The notes beneath the pieces were generated by a model. The model did no database searches. It worked only from the letters and a program-made list of their open reading frames with translations, and was not told the DNA's origin. From the NCBI GenBank assembly GCA_025350465.1, contig JANXXU010000016.1, positions 62,001-126,000 on the forward strand: a DNA stretch of 64,000 bases, given 5' to 3'. Both the position numbers and the translations under genes were made by a program. Of the stretch, positions 6,259 to 48,925 are shown piece after piece. The first letter of the stretch is position 1; each line of letters opens with the position of its first letter. The stretch is from Alphaproteobacteria bacterium (lineage in GTDB: Bacteria > Pseudomonadota > Alphaproteobacteria > Micropepsales > Micropepsaceae).

Positions 6259-7677
6259 TCAAGGCGCAAGCTTGAGCGTCGACTGCATCACCGTCACTTC
6301 ATAGGGATCCCAGGTCGAGAGCAGCCAATAGATCGTCGCCCGCTTCGCCTCGCCGGGTCCGGGCGGTGTCAGGTTCTGCGTGTAGCGGCTCATCACGAAG
6401 GGCGCGTAGAGATAGCCGAACGTGAGCCCAGGCGGCCACGAACTCGTGCGCCCGGGACAAGGCGTGCCGGGCTTACCCCAGAAGAGCGTGCAGAAGAGGC
6501 TGGGATCTGCGGCCGCGCTCAAGAGCATGGTGGGCGCCGACCACGGTCCCCATGGCGCCGGCGCCGTGCGCGCTTCGACTTGCCAGCCGCCGCAGGTGTA
6601 GAGCATCAGCCAAACTTGCAGGGGCGCGTTCCACGTCACCGAATGCTCGCCGACGCAACGCTCGTCGCCCGATGGGCTCAAGGCGTTGGCGCTGTCGGCG
6701 TAGAGTTCGGCGCCCGGGGGCGGCGCCCACTGGCTGCCGATGTGGCCGCTCTGCCATTTGGCATAATCGATCCAGATGGGACCGCCGCTCGCGTTCGTGC
6801 CGGCGTAAAACTTCCAGGTGTCGAACGCGCCGAACGTCGCCTGCGGCGCCAACGCGAGATAGGGAATGCTCATCCGGTAGCGCGCGACGCCGAAGACGGG
6901 GATCGGCGCTTCGTAGCCCAGTTTGTAATCGACGCCGCGCTTGCGGGGCAGGGGCGGGGCCGCCGTCACATAGACAAAGCCGTTGGGCATCGGCGCCACG
7001 TAGTGAGTGCTGATCGGCGGCGCGACTTGGGTGAACGCGAGCGGATTTGCGTCCGTCGAGTAGGCGAGCACGCTTCGCCCGATGCTGTTGCTGGCGGTGA
7101 TCTCCGGACAGAACGCGCCGGCGGGCGGTAACTTCAGGGGCGTCTTCGCATCGGGCCAGAAGAGATCGGGAAAGACGCAGTGATCGGTCCAGAAGAAGGC
7201 GAAGAAATTGCCGCCCACGGTGATGCCGCCGGTCGGCACGTTGAACGCGCCCTGCTGGATTGCCGGCGTCACCGTCGGCCTTCCGAGTCCGCGCCGCCCC
7301 GCACCGAAGAAACTCATGTCGAGACAGGTCTTGCTGTCGGGCGCGGCGGTGCGCTTCGTGCGGCCGAGCGCGTCGTCGGGCGGAACCGTCGGCACCGAGC
7401 CCGGCGGATGACCGTCCGGCACTGCGTCGCCGAAGAGGAAATAGAGTTGGCCCGTATCGCTCTCGACCGGAAACCCCAGATCGATGCCTTGCAACCCATA
7501 GCGCGTTTGGGTTCGCGCATCGGTCGTGGCACCCGTGAGCCAATCGGTCTCACCCGTGAGTTGGCAAATCTTCGTGCTCGCGCCCACGACCGACAACGTC
7601 GAAGCATCGGCGGGAGCGGTGATGACAACGACGGCGAGCGCCGCCGTCAGGACTGCAATCGCGCGCGCCAGACTCAT
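6259..7677 (-). CDS. Secreted DUF4185-type beta-propeller protein
   Basis: A 472-residue exported protein with signal peptide (AIAVLTAALAVVVITAPADA). The mature region has repeated blocks of the form LYFLFGDAVPDG, FFAFFWTDHC and QVWLMLYTCGGWQVEAR, as in DUF4185 proteins, which adopt a five-bladed propeller related to glycoside hydrolases. A role in carbohydrate binding or hydrolysis outside the cytoplasm is therefore plausible but not shown. No lipobox. It stands alone in its direction after the TIR-gene region. Confidence 0.62.
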   Translation of the reverse strand: MSLARAIAVLTAALAVVVITAPADASTLSVVGASTKICQLTGETDWLTGATTDARTQTRYGLQGIDLGFPVESDTGQLYFLFGDAVPDGHPPGSVPTVPPDDALGRTKRTAAPDSKTCLDMSFFGAGRRGLGRPTVTPAIQQGAFNVPTGGITVGGNFFAFFWTDHCVFPDLFWPDAKTPLKLPPAGAFCPEITASNSIGRSVLAYSTDANPLAFTQVAPPISTHYVAPMPNGFVYVTAAPPLPRKRGVDYKLGYEAPIPVFGVARYRMSIPYLALAPQATFGAFDTWKFYAGTNASGGPIWIDYAKWQSGHIGSQWAPPPGAELYADSANALSPSGDERCVGEHSVTWNAPLQVWLMLYTCGGWQVEARTAPAPWGPWSAPTMLLSAAADPSLFCTLFWGKPGTPCPGRTSSWPPGLTFGYLYAPFVMSRYTQNLTPPGPGEAKRATIYWLLSTWDPYEVTVMQSTLKLAP

Positions 7678-7806
7678 GGAAGTCGCTCCTCGTCTACCCG
7701 CCCGGCCATCAAGCTTCGATATTAATCCATTGCGGCGAGATCGTCTTGCCCGAAGTAGGCCGCCGCGACAGCATCGTCAGGGCGTCGCGCCGTAACCCGC
7801 ATACGC

Positions 7807-7855
7807 CCTTCTTGCGTTCTGTCACCGCCAATTTAGGCTCAGCGTTGACGAACTC
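7807..7855. repeat. 49-bp direct repeat, left copy, next to TIR gene
   Basis: Perfect copy of 9127-9175, in the same orientation 1,320 bp away. The sequence begins ccttcttgcgttctgtcacc and ends gttgacgaactc. The two copies bracket the TIR-domain gene exactly, with little else between. Confidence 0.9.
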
Positions 7856-7894
7856 TTCGTTTGGCCACGCCGAGGCGCGTGGATTCCTGCGTCC

Positions 7895-9022
7895 TTAATG
7901 GGGTCTCTCTCTAATGAGAGCGGTCAATTGACTCGTGCTCCAGGCGTTGTCGACCGTTTGCGTGGGTGCGGCGACCGTGGCCTGGAAACCAGTCGGATAG
8001 AATTTTACTGACATCTGAATATATTGGTCCGCTCGGCGAAGGAACGTCTCGCGTTTTTCGGCCTCGATCGTCTGGTCGATGCTTAATCGATAAAAAATGC
8101 TGGCAATCAGATGTGCGACCCAGCCGGTGCGCTGGCGGCAGAATCCTTCTGCGCTTTCGTAACAGAATTTCGCGTCGAACCGGTCGGACGCGAGAACCTG
8201 TACATTCCTCGGATCGTCCGCATAACGGACAAGCCAATCGATCGCGCGGTAGAGATCGCGATTGGGGCGCATGATGCGCTGTAGCTCCCCTTCGAAATAG
8301 AGCGTGTGGCCGCTGGACGCGGACAAGCCCGCAAGCGACTCCAGCGCCTTATCGGCCTTGTCGAAGGCACCGTTATTTATGTCTGTGTGGATTTGTTCAG
8401 CTAGTGCGATCACTTGACCGTCGCGTTCGCTTGGCGACGACAGTTTGCCGCCGATTGTCCATACGAGCATGCTGACGACGATCGCCAGAAAGCCGGCGCC
8501 GCCGGCGACCATCCATTTCCGCGCGCGCCAAGCGCCAGTGGCACGACTGCGTCGCGGACTTGAGAGCGTCGATGCCATGTCGGCCAGGGCCGGACCCTGT
8601 AGGCTCTTGATTGTTTCGACGAGGCTCTCGATGTGCGCCGCCAGAGGTGGCGTGAGTGCATCAAGCCAATGGAGGTTGCCGAGAAAGAATTCAAGCTTGC
8701 TGGAGGGTCCCACGTTCTCGATGCGAAACGGCAATATCGGCATCTCGCGATTGGCGGCGCGTTCGATCTCCCTGCGCACCTGAGACGACTGGTTGGCGTT
8801 TTCGGAGAAAATCAGGACCATCAATCGGCATCGATTAATCCCAATCATGATACCCTCGGCCCATTCGGTGCCGGGGTCGATGTCACGTGGCGCAATCCAG
8901 CAGCGGATGCCAGCGAATTCAATGCCTGCGCACACGGCGTCCGCCGTGAGCTTGTCCTTGTGCGAATAGCTGATGAACACGTCCAAGGTGATGCTTCCCC
9001 CGCCGGAGCAATCCAGCCCCAC
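7895..9022 (-). CDS. TIR-domain protein with transmembrane helix
   Basis: A 375-residue protein. Residues ~14-130 form a TIR domain: DVFISYSHKDK opens the first strand, RCWIAPRDIDPGTEW is the box-2-like loop, and CRLMVLIFSENANQSSQVRREIE contains the helix with conserved Glu expected in the NAD-hydrolysing pocket. A single membrane helix follows (about 170-192), then ~180 helical residues on the far side, with two or three Cys and repeats resembling TPR helices. Bacterial TIR proteins often act in NAD depletion or signalling. This one is tethered to the membrane with a probable periplasmic sensor-like tail. It starts with GTG, 105 bp inside the right 49-bp repeat. Confidence 0.82.
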   Translation of the reverse strand: MGLDCSGGGSITLDVFISYSHKDKLTADAVCAGIEFAGIRCWIAPRDIDPGTEWAEGIMIGINRCRLMVLIFSENANQSSQVRREIERAANREMPILPFRIENVGPSSKLEFFLGNLHWLDALTPPLAAHIESLVETIKSLQGPALADMASTLSSPRRSRATGAWRARKWMVAGGAGFLAIVVSMLVWTIGGKLSSPSERDGQVIALAEQIHTDINNGAFDKADKALESLAGLSASSGHTLYFEGELQRIMRPNRDLYRAIDWLVRYADDPRNVQVLASDRFDAKFCYESAEGFCRQRTGWVAHLIASIFYRLSIDQTIEAEKRETFLRRADQYIQMSVKFYPTGFQATVAAPTQTVDNAWSTSQLTALIRERPH

Positions 9023-9126
9023 AGCAATTAGCCAAGCGGCGTCATCGTTTCAATCCGGGCGTTCCCATGTTGCGGTCAACCGTCGGCGCATGTCCGCGGA
9101 TTTAGGCGTCTGACGCCATCGATACT

Positions 9127-9175
9127 CCTTCTTGCGTTCTGTCACCGCCAATTTAGGCTCAGCGTTGACGAACTC
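9127..9175. repeat. 49-bp direct repeat, right copy, next to TIR gene
   Basis: Identical to 7807-7855. It lies immediately upstream of the thioesterase start codon, so it may contain or displace that gene's original leader. The bases just beyond each end differ between the copies, which sets the limits at 49 bp. Confidence 0.9.
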
Positions 9176-9183
9176 GAAGAGAT

Positions 9184-9627
9184 GTGAAGCCGCAGATGAA
9201 AACAGTAACCGTGGAGACCGGCGAATTCGCCGGCTGGACCTACTGGCCCGACGAGCCGTTCGAGGCGCAGACCGCGGGCCCTTTTTTCTTTCGCGAGGAC
9301 GCGAAGGGTCCTGTTGCCGCGTTCCGCGCCGAGCGCAAGCATATGAACGGCGCCGGCATTATGCACGGCGGCGCGTTGATGACCTTCGCGGACTTCGCCT
9401 TGTTCGGCATCGCGCTCCACACGATAGAGGACGGCGGCTACGGCCTGACTGTTGCATTCACGTCGGAGTTCCTCGACGGGCCAAAGGAAGGCGAATACGT
9501 CGAGGCCCGCGGCGAGGTGCTGCGCGCCGGCGGCAGTTTGGTATTCGCGCGCGGCCTCGTCACAGCTGACGGCCGCCCATGCCTCAACTTCTCGGGCACG
9601 ATCAAACGGGTCAGGCCAAAAGGATAG
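9184..9627 (+). CDS. PaaI-like hotdog-fold thioesterase
   Basis: A 147-residue single hotdog domain. The conserved segment MNGAGIMHGGALMTFADFALFG near residue 55 is the HGG(A) active-site region of PaaI/YbgC-like acyl-CoA thioesterases, with the Asp on the central helix. The probable reaction is hydrolysis of an acyl- or aryl-acyl-CoA. GTG 9184 or ATG 9196 may be the start; neither has a strong ribosome-binding site, possibly because the 49-bp repeat has replaced the leader. Confidence 0.8.
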   Translation: MKPQMKTVTVETGEFAGWTYWPDEPFEAQTAGPFFFREDAKGPVAAFRAERKHMNGAGIMHGGALMTFADFALFGIALHTIEDGGYGLTVAFTSEFLDGPKEGEYVEARGEVLRAGGSLVFARGLVTADGRPCLNFSGTIKRVRPKG

Positions 9628-9753
9628 TGTCGGCTGAGGGCCAGGAGCGGCTTCGAAACAGTCCGCATCCGCATGAGAGTTCAACCCCTCCTACTATTTG
9701 GTAGTAACCTGCCTTACGGTGCCCCGCCGCGAGTCTCGCGGTGGGAGAAAACA

Positions 9754-10218
9754 ATGGGAAAATTATTGGCATCGATAGCGCTCTTGCTTGCGTCGACGAC
9801 GATGGCGAGCGCGGAGTCTTTTACGTTCACATCGACGGCGACGACCGCGAACCAGGTCGGCGGGCCCGTTGCCGGCGGCAAACCGGTCGGCGCCTCGTTC
9901 TCGACCGGTGAAAGCACCACGATCTTTGCTTCCGGCAAGAAGGCGACGTCCAAATTGCAATGCGCCAATTGGTCGGCGCAGCCGGGCCAGCTCTTTACCT
10001 CGCTCGGCTTTTGCACGGCCGATGACGGGACGAGCAAATACACGGTCGCCTTTTCCTGCCAGGCGATGGACGAGAAAAATACGGTTGCCGATTGTTGGGG
10101 CCGTCTGACCGGCGTATCGGGCGCCTATCAAGGCAAGGCCGGTACCGCGTCATGGCACGGAACGCAGAACGCCGACGGCAAATCCGGCGCGGCCTCCGGC
10201 CAAGGCGCTTGGAACTAA
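9754..10218 (+). CDS. Small secreted protein, unknown
   Basis: 154 residues, signal peptide about 1-22 (ASIALLLASTTMASA). The mature part is Gly/Ser/Thr-rich with several Cys and no recognised domain. ATG 9754 is chosen because GGGAGA lies 5-10 bases upstream and the signal peptide begins there. A hairpin (CCGCGAG-T-CTCGCGG) sits directly before the ribosome-binding site. Confidence 0.62.
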   Translation: MGKLLASIALLLASTTMASAESFTFTSTATTANQVGGPVAGGKPVGASFSTGESTTIFASGKKATSKLQCANWSAQPGQLFTSLGFCTADDGTSKYTVAFSCQAMDEKNTVADCWGRLTGVSGAYQGKAGTASWHGTQNADGKSGAASGQGAWN

Positions 10219-10228
10219 GACGTACGAT

Positions 10229-10257
10229 CGGGCGCGCGACAATGATCGTGCGCCCGG
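10229..10257 (+). terminator. Hairpin between two secreted-protein genes
   Basis: CGGGCGC and GCGCCCG pair as the outer arms, with CGA/TCG further in. It lies between the stop at 10218 and the next start at 10295. There is no T run after it, so it may be an intercistronic processing or attenuation structure rather than a full terminator. Confidence 0.35.
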
Positions 10258-10294
10258 CGCTTGCCTTCATTGATCTCAAAAAAAGGAAAACAAT

Positions 10295-10747
10295 ATGAGA
10301 AGAACAGCGCTCGCATGCGCGCTCGTTGCGTTCGCGGCCGGTCCGGCTTTCGCGACCGACGAAGCCGACGTCAAGGCGACGGTGACGCGGTACAACGATC
10401 ATTTCAACAAAGGCGAGACCAAGGAGCTCGTCGCCCTTTGCACCGCGCAAACCACCATCATCGACGACTTCGCGCCGCATTCCTGGCAAGGCGCCGCGAC
10501 CTGCGCCGATTGGTCGGCAGCACTCGCCGCCTCCGACAAAGCGGCCGGCATCACCAACGAGAAGGTGACCCTCGGCAAGCCATGGCACGTCGCCGTCACC
10601 GGCGATCGCGCTTACGCCGTCTATCCGACGCATTATTCCTACAGACTCAAGGGCAAGCCCGTCACCGAACAAGGCGTCTGGACGTTCGCGCTGCAGAAGA
10701 GCGCCGACGGCTGGCGCGTCGCCGGTTGGGCGTGGGCGCAGCATTAG
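10295..10747 (+). CDS. Secreted SnoaL/NTF2-like protein
   Basis: 150 residues: signal peptide ~1-20 (ALACALVAFAAGPAFA), then an NTF2-like cone fold. Typical signs are the opening helix with DVKATVTRYNDHFNKGE and the closing strands WTFALQKSADGWRVAGWAWAQ. Such domains bind or turn over small molecules; nothing shows which one here. The stop codon overlaps the convergent transporter stop by four bases. Confidence 0.7.
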   Translation: MRRTALACALVAFAAGPAFATDEADVKATVTRYNDHFNKGETKELVALCTAQTTIIDDFAPHSWQGAATCADWSAALAASDKAAGITNEKVTLGKPWHVAVTGDRAYAVYPTHYSYRLKGKPVTEQGVWTFALQKSADGWRVAGWAWAQH

Positions 10748-11865: not shown

Positions 11866-12088
11866 ATCTTCCCCCCCGCTTGAGGGGGCCGTCTTCGCTG
11901 AAGCTACGCCGGCCTTGTGCGCGCAATTCGCCCGCCGAAGCATTTTGCGGAGGCGGGAAGGTGGATGCCGGCGCGCTCACGCGACGGCAGACGGAAGGGG
12001 GGACAGCGCTTGCGAGTCTGTCCCCCCTTCCGTCTCGCCGCTCACTGACGTTCGCGTCGATCCACCTTCCCCCGCAAGGGGGGAAGAT
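11866..12088. repeat. Palindromic repeat element, copy A
   Basis: About 222 bp ending in inverted repeats (ATCTTCCCCCC at left, GGGGGGAAGAT at right). At its centre is a perfect 17-bp inverted repeat: arms 11990-12006 and 12018-12034, GACGGAAGGGGGGACAG and its complement. The same central hairpin, flanking motif (CGCCGCT...CTGACG) and ends recur at 26922-27075, and half of it at 26299-26350. It looks like a non-coding mobile repeat (MITE- or REP-like). The middle part (11890-11970) is absent from copy B. Confidence 0.75.
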
Positions 12089-33930: not shown

Positions 33931-35256
33931 ATGGCACCGCCCATTCGCATCGTTTCGCCCGAGCTGACCGTGCCCGTGCTCGACGCGCCGCGCCTGAAGC
34001 CCATCGACGTGTCGAGCGGCTTGGAGTCCGTCGCCGGCGGTCTCGAAGATTTGGCGCGCGCCCACAAGATCACCGAGGTCAACGACGCCCAGATCGGCTT
34101 CACCAACGCTTTCCGCGATCTCGACGCGAGCGTGCGCCAGGCGCCGTGGGACGAGAAGCAGCCACTGTTCGATGAGCATGCGGCAGCGATCCGCCGGCAA
34201 TATCTCGATCCCGTCACCGGCAAGCAGCAGCGCCAAGCGCTCGAGCCCGAGTTCGAGCGCACCGTGGGCATCTATCAGGCGCATACGGCCCACGATGCCT
34301 TTAGGGCCGAGGCCGCGCACAACATCGCCGCCGCCGGCATCGCGACGGGCAAGATCGCGGCCCAAGTCGCCATCGCCCGCTCGCCGCAAGAGCGCGAGAT
34401 GCTGGTCGACCAGGCGACCGCGCTCAACCATCATTTGGCGATCGGCGGCTTCATCAACGAGGACCAGCGTCAACAAGCAAACCTGCAGTTCCTGAATCAG
34501 GCCGATGTCGCCTCGGTTCAGGCGGCACTCGACGATCCGAACCGCGATCCCTCTGCTCTGGCGCGCACGCTGATCCAGCGCAAGCAGTACTTTCATTTGG
34601 ACCGAGATCAGGTTTCGAACTTCGTCAAGCTCGCGCGCAACGAAGCGATCCGCCGCGACGGCCTGGTGGCGGCCAACACCAATGTCGATGCGGCCGTGCT
34701 CCAGCAGCAAGCGCCCAAGATCGTTGACGACAATGTTCTATCGCTGTTGACGACGGGCCGCCCGCTCGCCGGCGACAGCCTCGCCACCCTCGATCGTTTG
34801 CCGAAAGATCAGCAGGCGCAATATCGCGGCGCGATCGACGGCGCCGACACCATCTTCCGCACCGCCGGCGATCTGCGCCTGCAGTCCGATCAGCAGATGG
34901 CCAAGTCGCTGGAGCAGCTCAAACCCTTCGGTGACGCCGTCTACAACCAGGCCATCGCCTTCGCCAACAGGATCCTTGCCGACCGCACGCGCGATCCGGC
35001 GGCAGCCATCGGCACTATTCCAGCCGTGGTAAATGCTTGGAACTCCCACGACCAAAATCCGACGAGCGAGAATCTGCAGAGACTGTCCAGACAAGCCAAG
35101 CCGCCCAAACCGCCCTCGGCATTCCTGCAGACCGGCAACGCTCGTTGCCGAACCATCTTGCCGAGAGCGAAGCGCGCACCATTCTCAACGCTGCACCCGC
35201 TGATCAGCTCGCCGCCTATCGCAACCTCAAGGCGCGCTACGGCACGTACGCGCTGA
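33931..35256 (+). CDS. Module 1: virion-like N-terminal region (frame-broken)
   Basis: About 385 residues of the shared N-terminal region, then ~55 out-of-frame residues. Opens PPIRIVSPELTVPVLDAPRL and continues as long helices (e.g. RTVGIYQAHTAHDAFRAEAA, NRDPSALARTLIQRKQYFHL). It is near-identical to module 2 (39484) and clearly related to module 4 (47465). Position after a scaffold gene and fold character suggest a phage internal-virion or ejection protein. Comparison with module 2 shows one base lost between about 35072 and 35090 (16 instead of 17 bases between gagaatctgca and gccaagccgc), which moves the rest into the frame of 35037-36545. Confidence 0.72.
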   Translation: MAPPIRIVSPELTVPVLDAPRLKPIDVSSGLESVAGGLEDLARAHKITEVNDAQIGFTNAFRDLDASVRQAPWDEKQPLFDEHAAAIRRQYLDPVTGKQQRQALEPEFERTVGIYQAHTAHDAFRAEAAHNIAAAGIATGKIAAQVAIARSPQEREMLVDQATALNHHLAIGGFINEDQRQQANLQFLNQADVASVQAALDDPNRDPSALARTLIQRKQYFHLDRDQVSNFVKLARNEAIRRDGLVAANTNVDAAVLQQQAPKIVDDNVLSLLTTGRPLAGDSLATLDRLPKDQQAQYRGAIDGADTIFRTAGDLRLQSDQQMAKSLEQLKPFGDAVYNQAIAFANRILADRTRDPAAAIGTIPAVVNAWNSHDQNPTSENLQRLSRQAKPPKPPSAFLQTGNARCRTILPRAKRAPFSTLHPLISSPPIATSRRATARTR

Positions 35257-39483: not shown

Positions 39484-41994
39484 ATGTCCCCACCCATTCG
39501 CATCGTCTCGCCCGAACTGACGGTGCCGGTGCTCGATGCGCCGCGCCTGAAGCCCATCGACGTGTCGAGCGGTTTGGAGTCGGTCGCTGGCGGTCTCGAA
39601 GATTTGGCGCGTGCGCACAAGATCACCGAGGTCAACGACGCCCAGATCGGCTTCACCAATGCTTTCCGCGATCTCGACGCGAGCGTGCGCCAGGCGCCGT
39701 GGGACGAGAAGCAGCCACTGTTCGATGAGCATGCGGCCACGATCCGCCGGCAATATCTCGATCCCGTTACCGGCCGTCAGCAGCGCCAAGCACTTGAGCC
39801 CGAATTCGATCGCACCGTCGGCATCTATCAAGCCCATACCGCACACGACGCCTTTAGGGCCGAGGCCGCGCACAACATCGCCGCCGCCGGCATCGCGACG
39901 GGGAAGATCGCCGCTCAAGTCGCCATCGCGCGCTCACCGCAGGAGCGCGAGATGCTGGTCGGCCAAGCGACCGCGCTCAATGATCACCTGGCGATCGGCG
40001 GCTTCATCAACGAAGACCAACGCCAACAAGCGAACCAGCAGTTCCTGAACCAGGCCGATGTCGCCTCGGTTCAGGCGGCCCTCGACGATCCGAACCGCGA
40101 TCCCTCTGCTCTGGCGCGCACGCTGATGCAGCGCAAGCAGTACTTTCATTTGGACCGGGATCAGGTTTCGAACTTCGCCAAGCTCGCGCGCAACGAAGCG
40201 ATCCGCCGCGACGGTCTGGCGGCGGCCAACGCCAATGTCGACGCAGCAGCGCTCCAGCAGCAAGCGCCCAAGATCGTTCACGACAATGTTCTATCGCTGT
40301 TGACGACGGGCCGCCCGGTCGCCGACGGCAGCCTCGCCGCACTCGATCGCCTGCCGAGCGATCAACAGCCGAAATATCGCGATGCGATCGACGGCGCGAG
40401 CCAGATCTTCGGCAAGATCGGCGACATGCGCACGCTGCCGCCGGACAAAATCGCCAGCGCGCTCGATCAGCTCAAGCCGCTCGGCGCCGGCATTCACGCC
40501 CAAGCGCAGGATCTAGCGAACCGCATCATGGCCGACCGCGCGAGCGATCCAGCGCGCGCCATGCGCGAGTCCGTTCCGACCGTCGCCGATGCTTGGGCCG
40601 CCTACGAAGCGAACGCCGCGCCCGAGAATCTGCAAGCGGCAGCGAAGCTGAGCCAAGCCGCGCAAACCGCGCTCGGCATTCCGTCGGGCCAGCAACGCGT
40701 ATTGCCGAACGATCTTGCCGAAAGCGAGGCTCGCACCATCCTTAGCACCGCGCCCGCCGATCAGCTCACGGCGTTGCGCGATCTCAAGTCCCGTTACGGC
40801 ACGTACGCACCGAACGTGCTGCCGCAGGTAAATCCCCTCCTCTCGCCGCAATTGCGCCAAGCCGCCGCGCAATCCTCGTCGCTCGCGGGCGATCTCGTCT
40901 GGCGCCGCGCCGTCGCCGAAGCGGGCGCGAACGGTCCGGTGCCGGATGTAGAACAGCTGCGCAGCGCAACATTCCAGCTTGCTGCCAATCAACCGCTCGA
41001 CGCGCAAAGCGGCGCGGCGAATGGCACCACGCCGACGCCCGACTTAAATCAAGTAGCGACAAACGGTACGACCGACGCGTCGTCGCCTGACTCCGCGACG
41101 ACGGTGCAAGCAGTGGCAGCACTTGGCGCTCAGCCGCAATCGGCGCCCACCGCTCCGCCTCCTCAATCTCCGGGAAATCTAGCCCAGCCTCCTGCGACGC
41201 CGCAGCCGAAATACAATGAGGTCGCACCGTCGCAAGTGCCTCAAAATCCAAACATCATTCCGCCCGCATCGGGCGACGCGCCGTGGAAGCTTACTCCGAG
41301 GAAAAACATACTCGTTCCGGCTGATCATCTCGATCCTGGGCTGCGCGCATATCTCGACAGTCTCGATTGGTCGAATCCGACCGATGACTTAATTCGAGGG
41401 CCCCATACGCCGCACGGGGGTGGCGGCTTCTATGACTTGCGGGCAGGCAAAAATCACACTCATTGGTATCATGGTTCGCTTGACATCATGTCGATCCAAG
41501 GGACAGTCGATTCCAAGGGGCACGAATTGACCCAGGGACGAGAAGTTACCTCTCCGGTCACAGGGACGTACGTCGGAAACGGTAGCGTTCCTGATGAGGG
41601 GCACTACATCGAACTCGATTTAGGGCGCAGCGTACATATTCGGGTTTTTCACGTAAATTTGGCGAATGCACCCTTCTCCGATAAACAGCCACCGCACGAT
41701 GTTTTGCTGCGACAGGGAGACATCGTTCGCTCCGGCGAAACAATCGGCACCCAAGAGTATTTTGGCGGCACTCTCGCAGGCACGCCTATTCACGCCCACG
41801 TCCAAATCATGCTCGAAACGTCCCCCCGCTCAGGACGCTATTTCCTAATCGATCCGTCCCTCTTCATTCACAACCCGCAGGGCTTTTGGCACCAGGGTAG
41901 CTTCGGCGCGCCCGCGCCAACGCCGGAGATCGTCGAGCCAGGCAATGGACCGCCGGGGCAACCGTGGTACACGGGAAACTTGCTGCCGCACTGA
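39484..41994 (+). CDS. Module 2: virion-like protein with M23-like C-terminal domain
   Basis: 836 residues, the only module intact from start to tip. Residues ~1-500 are the shared helical N-terminal region, ~510-600 a Pro/Gln/Ala-rich linker, and ~655-800 an M23-like domain: HWYHGSLDIMS (His...Asp), VTSPVTGTYVGNG, LLRQGDIVRSGETIGTQ and IHAHVQIML (HxH). The shared region probably mediates packaging or delivery, while the tip attacks peptidoglycan. The tip is only distantly like that of module 1. The exported protein at 42153 follows. Confidence 0.78.
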   Translation: MSPPIRIVSPELTVPVLDAPRLKPIDVSSGLESVAGGLEDLARAHKITEVNDAQIGFTNAFRDLDASVRQAPWDEKQPLFDEHAATIRRQYLDPVTGRQQRQALEPEFDRTVGIYQAHTAHDAFRAEAAHNIAAAGIATGKIAAQVAIARSPQEREMLVGQATALNDHLAIGGFINEDQRQQANQQFLNQADVASVQAALDDPNRDPSALARTLMQRKQYFHLDRDQVSNFAKLARNEAIRRDGLAAANANVDAAALQQQAPKIVHDNVLSLLTTGRPVADGSLAALDRLPSDQQPKYRDAIDGASQIFGKIGDMRTLPPDKIASALDQLKPLGAGIHAQAQDLANRIMADRASDPARAMRESVPTVADAWAAYEANAAPENLQAAAKLSQAAQTALGIPSGQQRVLPNDLAESEARTILSTAPADQLTALRDLKSRYGTYAPNVLPQVNPLLSPQLRQAAAQSSSLAGDLVWRRAVAEAGANGPVPDVEQLRSATFQLAANQPLDAQSGAANGTTPTPDLNQVATNGTTDASSPDSATTVQAVAALGAQPQSAPTAPPPQSPGNLAQPPATPQPKYNEVAPSQVPQNPNIIPPASGDAPWKLTPRKNILVPADHLDPGLRAYLDSLDWSNPTDDLIRGPHTPHGGGGFYDLRAGKNHTHWYHGSLDIMSIQGTVDSKGHELTQGREVTSPVTGTYVGNGSVPDEGHYIELDLGRSVHIRVFHVNLANAPFSDKQPPHDVLLRQGDIVRSGETIGTQEYFGGTLAGTPIHAHVQIMLETSPRSGRYFLIDPSLFIHNPQGFWHQGSFGAPAPTPEIVEPGNGPPGQPWYTGNLLPH

Positions 41995-44994: not shown

Positions 44995-45852
44995 ATGACG
45001 CTTTCCACCACCGCCGCTCGCGTCTCTTACGCGGGTAACGGCGCCACGACCTCGTTCGCCTTCGTCTTCAAGATTTGGGCGATGAGCGACCTGAAGGTTT
45101 TCTTGCGCGACACCACGTCGCTCGTCGACACCCTGCAAGTGCTCACGACCGACTACACCGTGTCGGGAACACTGCCCGGCACCGGCAACGTTGTGTTCAA
45201 TGCGGCGCCGGCGACGGGAAAAACCGTCGTCGTCCTGCGCGACGCGGCGACGACCCAAGATCTCGATCTCATCGCCAACGGCGCTTTCGCCGCCGACAAC
45301 GTGGAGACCGCGCTCGACAAGATCGCGGGCTACGTCCAGGCGCTCGAGGAACAGACCGGGCGCGCGTTGCTCCTGCCGGTCGGCACGAGCCTCGCGAATC
45401 TGGCGCTGCCCGAACCGCGCGCCGCGATCGCCAACAATCTTCTCGCCGTCAACGCGACCGGCGACGGCGTGACGGCGGTTGCCACCTCGACGCTCAATGC
45501 AGGGCAAGTGGTCAGCGCGTTCGTGCAGACATTGCTCGACGACATCGATGTCGCCACCGCGCGCCAAACGCTGGGGCTGCGGGCGCTTCGTCAAACCGGC
45601 ATCACCTATGACCCGGCATCGCTCGCCACCAATACCGAAACCGAGAGCGCCAACATCACCGTCACCGGTGCGGCGCTCGGCGACAGCGTGATGGTTTTCC
45701 CGCCTTACGACACGCAGGGCATCGTCATTCAGGGCCGCGTGACGGCGGCCAACACCGTGCGCATCCGCTGCCGCAACGGCACGGCCGGCACCATCGACCT
45801 CGCCAACTCCGCGGCGTGGGAAGTGTGGGTGTGGAAAGGCGGCCAGTCATGA
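44995..45852 (+). CDS. Phage tail-fibre N-terminal protein (T7-like)
   Basis: 285 residues. VSYAGNGATTSFAFVFKIWAMSDLKVFL near the start and DYTVSG...GNVVFNAAPATGKTVVVLRD are the hallmarks of T7-type tail-fibre N-terminal (attachment) domains. No long receptor-binding tip is present. GAGG precedes ATG 44995. Its end overlaps the endolysin start (ATGA). Confidence 0.82.
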   Translation: MTLSTTAARVSYAGNGATTSFAFVFKIWAMSDLKVFLRDTTSLVDTLQVLTTDYTVSGTLPGTGNVVFNAAPATGKTVVVLRDAATTQDLDLIANGAFAADNVETALDKIAGYVQALEEQTGRALLLPVGTSLANLALPEPRAAIANNLLAVNATGDGVTAVATSTLNAGQVVSAFVQTLLDDIDVATARQTLGLRALRQTGITYDPASLATNTETESANITVTGAALGDSVMVFPPYDTQGIVIQGRVTAANTVRIRCRNGTAGTIDLANSAAWEVWVWKGGQS

Positions 45853-47464: not shown

Positions 47465-48925
47465 ATGTCTCCACCTATTCGTATCGTCTCGCCCGAGTTG
47501 ACCGTGCCGATTCTCGATGCGCCGCGGCTGAAGCCCGTCGACGTGTCGAGCGGCCTTGAGTCCGTCGCCGGCGGTCTCGAAGATTTGACGCGTGCGCACA
47601 AGATCACCGAGGTGAACGACGCACTGATCGGTTTCACCGATGCCTTTCGCGATCTCGATGCGAACGTGCGCGCCGCTCCCTGGGATCAAAAGCAACACAC
47701 GTTCGCAGAAGGTGCGGACAGCATCCGCCGGCAATTTCTCAATCCAGTCACCGGTAAGCTTCAACGCCAGGCGCTCGAGCCCGAGTTCGATCGCACCGTG
47801 GGCATCTATCGCGCCCACACCGCTCACGATGCCTTCAGGGCCGAGGCTGCGCACAACATCGCCGCCGCCGGCATCGCGACGGGGAAGATCGCCGCTCAAG
47901 TCGCCATCGCCCGCTCGCCGCAAGAGCGCGAGATGCTGGTCGACCAAGCGACCGGGCTCAACGATCGTCTGGCCATCGGCGGCTTCATCAACGAGGACCA
48001 GCGTCAGCAAGCGAATCTCCAATTCCTGAACCAGGCGGATGTCGCGTCGGTTCAGGCGGCCCTCGACGATCCCAACCGCGATCCCTCCGCTCTCGCGCGC
48101 ACGCTGACGCAGCGCAAGCAGTACTTTCATTTGGATCCGGAGCAGGTTTCGAACTTCGCCCAACTCGCACGCAACGAAGCGATCCGCCGCGACTCGGTTG
48201 GGAAGGCGGTTTCAAGCGTCGCCGATATCGCAGCGGCCAGCGATGCGGCGATTGCGGCGAAAGCCGCCGTGCAATCGCGTTTAACGACGGGACGGCCGCT
48301 CGACGATACGGGGCAAAACGCGATCAAAGGCTTACCGCCCGAGCAGCAGTCCGAATATCAAGCAGCGGCCGACAGCGCTGGCCAAATCTTCGGCAAGGTC
48401 GGCGACATGCGTACGCTGCCGCCGGAGAAGATCGCCGCCGCGCTCGATGCGCTAAAGCCGCTCGGCGCCGGCATTCACCAGCAAGCGCAAGACCTCGCGA
48501 ACGGCATCATGGCCGACCGCGTCCGCGATCCGGCTCGCGCCATGCGCGACGCCATTCCAAGCGTCGCCAATGCCTGGGCCGCATATGAGGCCAACAACAC
48601 ACCCGAGAATTTGCAAGCGGCAGCGAAGCTGAGCCAAGCCGCACAAACCGCACTCGGCATTCCGCCCGATCAACGAGGTTTGCTGCCGAATGATCTCGCG
48701 GAGAGCGAAGCGCGCACCATCCTGAATGCCGCGCCGGCCAATCAGCTCACCGCCTTGCGCGATCTCAAAGCACGCTACGGCGCCTATGTGCCGAGCGTGT
48801 TGCAGCAGATCGATCCCTTCATCTCGCCGCAATTACGCGAAGCCGCCGGCCAACCCTCAGACCTTGTGGGTGATCTCGTCTGGCGTCGCCACGAACAGCG
48901 GTGCACCCGCATCGGACGTATCTGA
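47465..48925 (+). CDS. Module 4: virion-like N-terminal region
   Basis: 486 residues. Same opening as modules 1 and 2 (PPIRIVSPELTVPILDAPRL) and collinear up to GDLVWRR, more diverged, with a replaced stretch around residues 240-290. After VWRR the frame is lost. Compared with module 2 (VWRRAVAEAG), about 8 bases are missing between two gtcgc repeats near 48880-48890. The in-frame continuation, VATNSGAPASDV, is in the frame of 48885-49640. Confidence 0.78.
   Translation: MSPPIRIVSPELTVPILDAPRLKPVDVSSGLESVAGGLEDLTRAHKITEVNDALIGFTDAFRDLDANVRAAPWDQKQHTFAEGADSIRRQFLNPVTGKLQRQALEPEFDRTVGIYRAHTAHDAFRAEAAHNIAAAGIATGKIAAQVAIARSPQEREMLVDQATGLNDRLAIGGFINEDQRQQANLQFLNQADVASVQAALDDPNRDPSALARTLTQRKQYFHLDPEQVSNFAQLARNEAIRRDSVGKAVSSVADIAAASDAAIAAKAAVQSRLTTGRPLDDTGQNAIKGLPPEQQSEYQAAADSAGQIFGKVGDMRTLPPEKIAAALDALKPLGAGIHQQAQDLANGIMADRVRDPARAMRDAIPSVANAWAAYEANNTPENLQAAAKLSQAAQTALGIPPDQRGLLPNDLAESEARTILNAAPANQLTALRDLKARYGAYVPSVLQQIDPFISPQLREAAGQPSDLVGDLVWRRHEQRCTRIGRI

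Follow-up and report, generated by a model that had tools for sequence, protein, structure and literature searches.

In the window, by which we mean the whole 64,000-nucleotide stretch analysed here (positions 62001-126000 of contig C37 in the draft genome G000), a TIR-domain gene bracketed by perfect 49-bp direct repeats probably took the place of an acyl-CoA dehydrogenase (ACAD) gene next to a thioesterase gene, after which the old promoter segment was probably duplicated locally, giving a second copy on the far side of the TIR gene. The repeats would then be a scar and not the ends of a mobile unit. The features of the locus are collected in Table 1.

Table 1. Features in and around the repeat-bracketed block, in window coordinates
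Feature	Position	Strand	Remarks
DUF4185 gene	6259..7677	-	PF13810, E 3.5e-20; 129 bp beyond the left repeat copy
26-codon reading frame	7722..7802	-	Starts just left of the left repeat; from translation
Left 49-bp copy	7807..7855	+	Lies between DUF4185 and the end of the TIR gene (3'); interpreted as the more recent of the two, made by duplication
TIR-domain gene	7895..9022	-	375 aa; PF13676, E 3.5e-21; same orientation as the lost ACAD gene
Decayed ACAD 5' end	9092..9119	-	Start codon 9117-9119, in-frame stop 9102-9104 (codon 6); inside the block
Shine-Dalgarno-like AAGGAG	9125..9130	-	Precedes the remnant start codon; 4 of 6 bases within the right repeat; by eye
Right 49-bp copy	9127..9175	+	Interpreted as the former intergenic (promoter) region between ACAD and thioesterase; part of the 9092-9182 alignment with L128
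Hotdog-fold thioesterase gene	9184..9627 (GTG 9184 or ATG 9196)	+	PF03061, E 1e-10; 68-82% relatives in 7 MAG loci

The sequence-only reading had reported identical repeats in the same orientation around the TIR gene, and we confirmed them. Their starts are 1320 bp apart, the bases directly outside the two copies differ at all four edges, and about 7e-20 exact pairs of this length are expected by chance in 64 kb. A search for the 49-mer elsewhere in the genome (4,063,295 bases in 52 contigs), which had been proposed as a check, found no copy beyond these two when up to 3 mismatches were allowed. The 49-mer is thus not dispersed, and a REP-like family, of which many copies would be expected, was rejected. 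Plasmids searched with the 49-mer (E up to 1) gave zero matches; phages gave at best 19 matching bases, at E 0.9, in 45 records; and a set of viral contigs (viral_contigs) held zero exact matches to its 24-base core. No RNA family matched positions 7600-9700 at E up to 1. Between 7600 and 9300, a scan for consensus sigma-70-like promoters gave 0 sites, and one terminator-like site (8355-8368) was present against 1.6 expected. In the 3 kb to the left and the 3 kb to the right of the block, none of its 12-mers was found again, and no trace of a second TIR unit was seen. At 11950-12088 the window also carries a multi-copy intergenic repeat, which occurs, often on both strands, in the same genome and in congeners.

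The product of the TIR gene scored 76.4 bits against Pfam PF13676 (TIR_2), well above the cut-off of 28, and a transmembrane segment was predicted by eye from its sequence. Scans against defence families returned partial matches to the TIR domain only, and the structure model, built with two sequences, was poor (mean pLDDT 45.9). The 26-codon frame on the left is probably not a gene. On the right, the repeat copy ends 8 bp before the GTG and 20 bp before the ATG at which the thioesterase may start. The domain scan of five neighbouring proteins found no transposase or integrase, so the earlier statement that a transposase is absent holds for those five. Further off in the window, a subtilase-family peptidase gene (PF00082) at 1217-2701 is preceded by a 276-aa protein without a Pfam match, and three genes (33931-35256, 39484-41994 and 47465-48925), 5.5-13.5 kb apart and without a PHROGs match, have identical stretches as long as 77 bp in common, with a tail-fibre-like protein encoded among them at 44995-45852.

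The origin of the right copy was revealed by relatives of the thioesterase. Seven MAG loci, together with six further genomes found among 385 of the class (E up to 1e-40), provided 13 loci, and in 6 of these (L128, L131, L132, L133, L148 and L150) a divergent ACAD gene adjoins the thioesterase gene. Since the upstream sequences of L130 and L145, and of L134 and L147, are identical and probably come from duplicate genomes, the proportion becomes 6 of 11 distinct loci. In L128, a Hyphomonadaceae MAG and the nearest relative, the product of the divergent gene matches Pfam ACAD domains. Positions 9092-9182 of the window aligned with the ACAD/thioesterase intergenic region of L128 at a score of 36.5, which none of 3000 shuffles reached, and the alignment spans the whole right repeat plus 35 bases of the block. 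The claim that the right copy is the leader of the thioesterase gene is thereby borne out. When 9117-9201 was aligned end to end with the interval from ACAD start to thioesterase start in L128 (4919-5003), the score was 16.0; 2000 shuffles averaged -48.6 and reached -14 at most. The distance between the two starts is 77 bp in the window (9119 to 9196) and 80 bp in L128. The best upstream alignments of L131, L132, L133 and L148 also cover the ACAD remnant, with 4, 4, 2 and 4 of 500 shuffles, respectively, reaching the score. L150, which also has the divergent ACAD gene, showed no upstream similarity (182 of 500 shuffles), nor did the seven loci without it (138 to 464 of 500, L150 included). Homology thus shows the right 49-mer to be the old intergenic region between ACAD and thioesterase.

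The remnant itself reads ATG GCG TCA GAC GCC TAA ATC CGC on the minus strand from 9119 to 9096, and the ACAD N-terminus is M A F D A E (I or T) R in five thioesterase-linked relatives and M A L D L E T R in L150. A profile was built from the opening 27 bases of four thioesterase-linked ACAD genes, which are not fully independent (L131 and L133 are near relatives). It ranked the remnant first among 127,946 window positions, with a score of 20.3 against 14.4 for the next; a profile from all ten ACAD starts again placed it first (17.9 against 14.6). Pairwise alignments of the right inner flank without the repeat were weak: 79 of 1000 shuffles reached the score against L128, where the best match was not the ACAD start, and 4 of 1000 reached it against L131. 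The profile is therefore the main support for the ACAD remnant. In the left outer flank (7700-7806), no ACAD start was detected (61 of 1000 shuffles for L128 and 516 of 1000 for L131), and this flank did not resemble the right inner flank either (240 of 1000). A similarity of the left flank to the region upstream of DUF4185 in G033 was discarded, since the two strands gave equal scores (reached by 4 and 8 of 500 shuffles). Because the ACAD-side DNA continues from the right repeat into the block, the left copy appears to be the added one.

A complete gene of the L128 ACAD family is present elsewhere in the same genome (contig C44, 143042-144184), 63% identical to that of L128, and complete members of the family occur in 4 of 7 congeners searched (G001, G002, G004 and G007; 64-65%). 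The thioesterase has no close relative in the taxonomic family: with 96 family genomes searched, the best among the matches listed for the other genomes are 33-42% identical. The thioesterase gene and the ACAD remnant may themselves have been acquired, and we use 'old' and 'ancestral' for this locus only.

The TIR gene, judged by its distribution, is accessory. A TIR match at E up to 0.001 was found in 27 of 96 family genomes, the genome of the window included, but a full-length relative was present, besides that genome, only in G001 (residues 10-375, about 60-61% identical). G001 is the only one to have it among the 10 other genomes of the genus, several of which are incomplete, and there the gene is at a different locus, between marC- and purB-like genes (names by eye), where no bracketing repeats were found. 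At the DNA level, the window resembles the G001 locus only over 7914-8986, inside the coding region. For other TIR loci, mostly of distant TIR relatives, we compared 1500 bases at each locus end, the inner edge being the edge of the match and not the end of the gene. The longest direct repeats were 10-15 bp in the 27 usable loci of 33; those set aside were the window's own locus, L069, L077, L078 and L081 (shorter than 2500 bases) and L066 (2542 bases, overlapping flank windows). Thioesterase control loci gave 9-16 bp in 34 of 35, with L042 (2708 bases) set aside for the same overlap.

Several side observations concern other loci. The 3' end of a second TIR gene, of the same family, survives as a 91-bp, frame-shifted remnant in the genome of the window, on contig C7 at about 177.2 kb (L096, 9184-9286), flanked by cupin and aminotransferase genes. 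On contig C14 of G033 (L098), cupin, DUF4185 and purB-like genes occur together; at three sites elsewhere, such genes neighbour TIR sequence. The radC-purB interval (names by eye) holds cupin, DUF4185 and DNA methylase-like genes in L098 and TIR, marC-like and SDR-like genes in L097 (G001, contig C3). As its gene content varies among relatives in this way, we keep the gene sharing on C14 as an observation only. At about 9636-9728 in L097, between the TIR gene and the purB-like gene, is a dispersed intergenic repeat with 28 other matches in G001.

Taken together, the results are best explained by a local duplication of a promoter segment. In the proposed sequence of events, the 49-bp segment started as the region between the ACAD and thioesterase genes, a two-way promoter and leader whose promoter activity is suggested by its position. 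Of the ACAD gene only about nine codons would have survived. The TIR gene, which now occupies the position of the ACAD gene and has the same orientation, would presumably be transcribed from the old ACAD promoter. A later local duplication would then have placed the second copy between the TIR gene and DUF4185. This could have happened by tandem duplication of a 1320-bp unit (TIR gene, ACAD remnant and 49-mer), with the outer unit trimmed from the left to 49 bp, or by a short templated copy during repair of the DUF4185/TIR junction. Speculatively, the second copy may have been retained as a promoter for the leftward DUF4185 gene. What a local duplication should leave is what is seen, namely a copy identical to an older adjacent segment, with edges unrelated to the boundaries of the insert. 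The order of events is suggested by the state of the two sequences. In the remnant, 7 of 27 bases differ from L148, and the first six codons include a stop and an altered residue; the two repeats match at all 49 positions. Were only 2-4 of the remnant changes to postdate the loss of function, unconstrained copies of equal age should show about 7 to 15 differences, an estimate that comes from 27 bases. With a decayed ACAD remnant beside identical repeats, the duplication probably came after the ACAD loss, unless the copies have been kept identical by selection or gene conversion. No intermediate state was found in relatives, among genomes that include no close relative.

An alternative that we regard as unlikely is that a circle carrying the TIR gene, the ACAD remnant and the 49-mer integrated, reversibly, by one homologous crossover into a chromosome with DUF4185, one 49-mer and the thioesterase gene. 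Such an event yields the exact order seen, with the ACAD remnant inside the block, as well as recent identical repeats, but it requires a recipient from which the ACAD start had already been removed at the very edge of the 49-mer, and this allele was unseen in the genomes searched, which include no close relative.

The sequence-only reading had proposed a single-gene cargo inserted between the repeats. We find this improbable in its form of a TIR block that entered a 49-bp target and duplicated it. Long perfect direct repeats do stand at both ends around an accessory gene, and the scan of the five neighbouring proteins was free of transposases. A target duplication, however, would leave the old neighbours outside both copies. 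The old left neighbour of the target, the ACAD start, is instead inside the block beside the right copy and was undetected outside the left one, so the block is not a clean repeat-bounded insert. Moreover, no bracketing repeats longer than 15 bp were seen at the G001 relative of the TIR gene or at 26 further TIR loci. The empty site whose search had been suggested was not seen, either with the DNA of 7000-10300 in 61 genomes or with the thioesterase protein in the 96 family genomes, genome_contigs and the 385 class genomes, none of these sets containing a close relative.

Very little weight is given to an assembly artefact, in which a repeat of the assembler's overlap length led to a misjoin of contigs. 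The assembly is a draft of 52 contigs and the repeats end abruptly, but we reason that the assembly graph needs both half-junctions to be present in the reads, and the locus is internal to a 150-kb contig. Deletion between the 49-bp repeats is possible in principle, as for any direct repeat of such size. That the two copies act as a recombination switch, with deletion of the block removing the TIR gene and leaving DUF4185 and the thioesterase to diverge from a single shared two-way promoter, seems to us just as improbable as the artefact; if it were true, a probable defence gene would be lost and could be regained only from outside. The least credible reading is a product of site-specific recombination, for instance an integron cassette, or an att-flanked element mobilised in trans, since the better-than-shuffled fold of the bare 49-mer on the minus strand (z -2.72) is set against z -1.19 on the plus strand and z 0.07 and 0.43 for plus-strand windows with flanks, GTTRRRY and RYYYAAC cores are absent within 30 bases of either copy, neither the genome nor the plasmids hold a further 49-mer, the viral contigs lack its core, and the right repeat is old intergenic DNA.

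With a local duplication as the preferred reading, the locus provides a worked example of a repeat-bracketed gene that can be misread as mobile cargo, and in it an accessory TIR gene occupies the position of a metabolic one. It was the comparison of the promoter region with distant relatives that exposed DNA of the old neighbour inside the supposed insert. The general interest of the case is small.

Among known systems, integrons provide one comparison, in which attC core sites have the consensus GTTRRRY and RYYYAAC. The locus is like a cassette in having a single gene between repeats and a 49-mer that can fold on one strand, and is unlike it in lacking the core sites, as given above. A second comparison is with restriction-modification genes of Helicobacter pylori, for which insertion with long target duplication has been described (Nobusato et al. 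2000, as cited in PMC1643837 and PMC4978471). In the outline given by those citing papers, such insertions resemble the present locus in an accessory gene between long perfect direct repeats, with no transposase here among the neighbours scanned; they are unlike it in that the old target flank is here inside the block and not outside the left repeat, and that no empty allele was found here, in genomes without a close relative. A third is the residue of tandem duplication or templated repair, which belongs to illegitimate recombination. Unlike in a full tandem duplication, the remainder of the second unit is gone here, but the likeness extends to short identical direct copies one unit apart, to arbitrary edges, and to one copy that is the old intergenic region.
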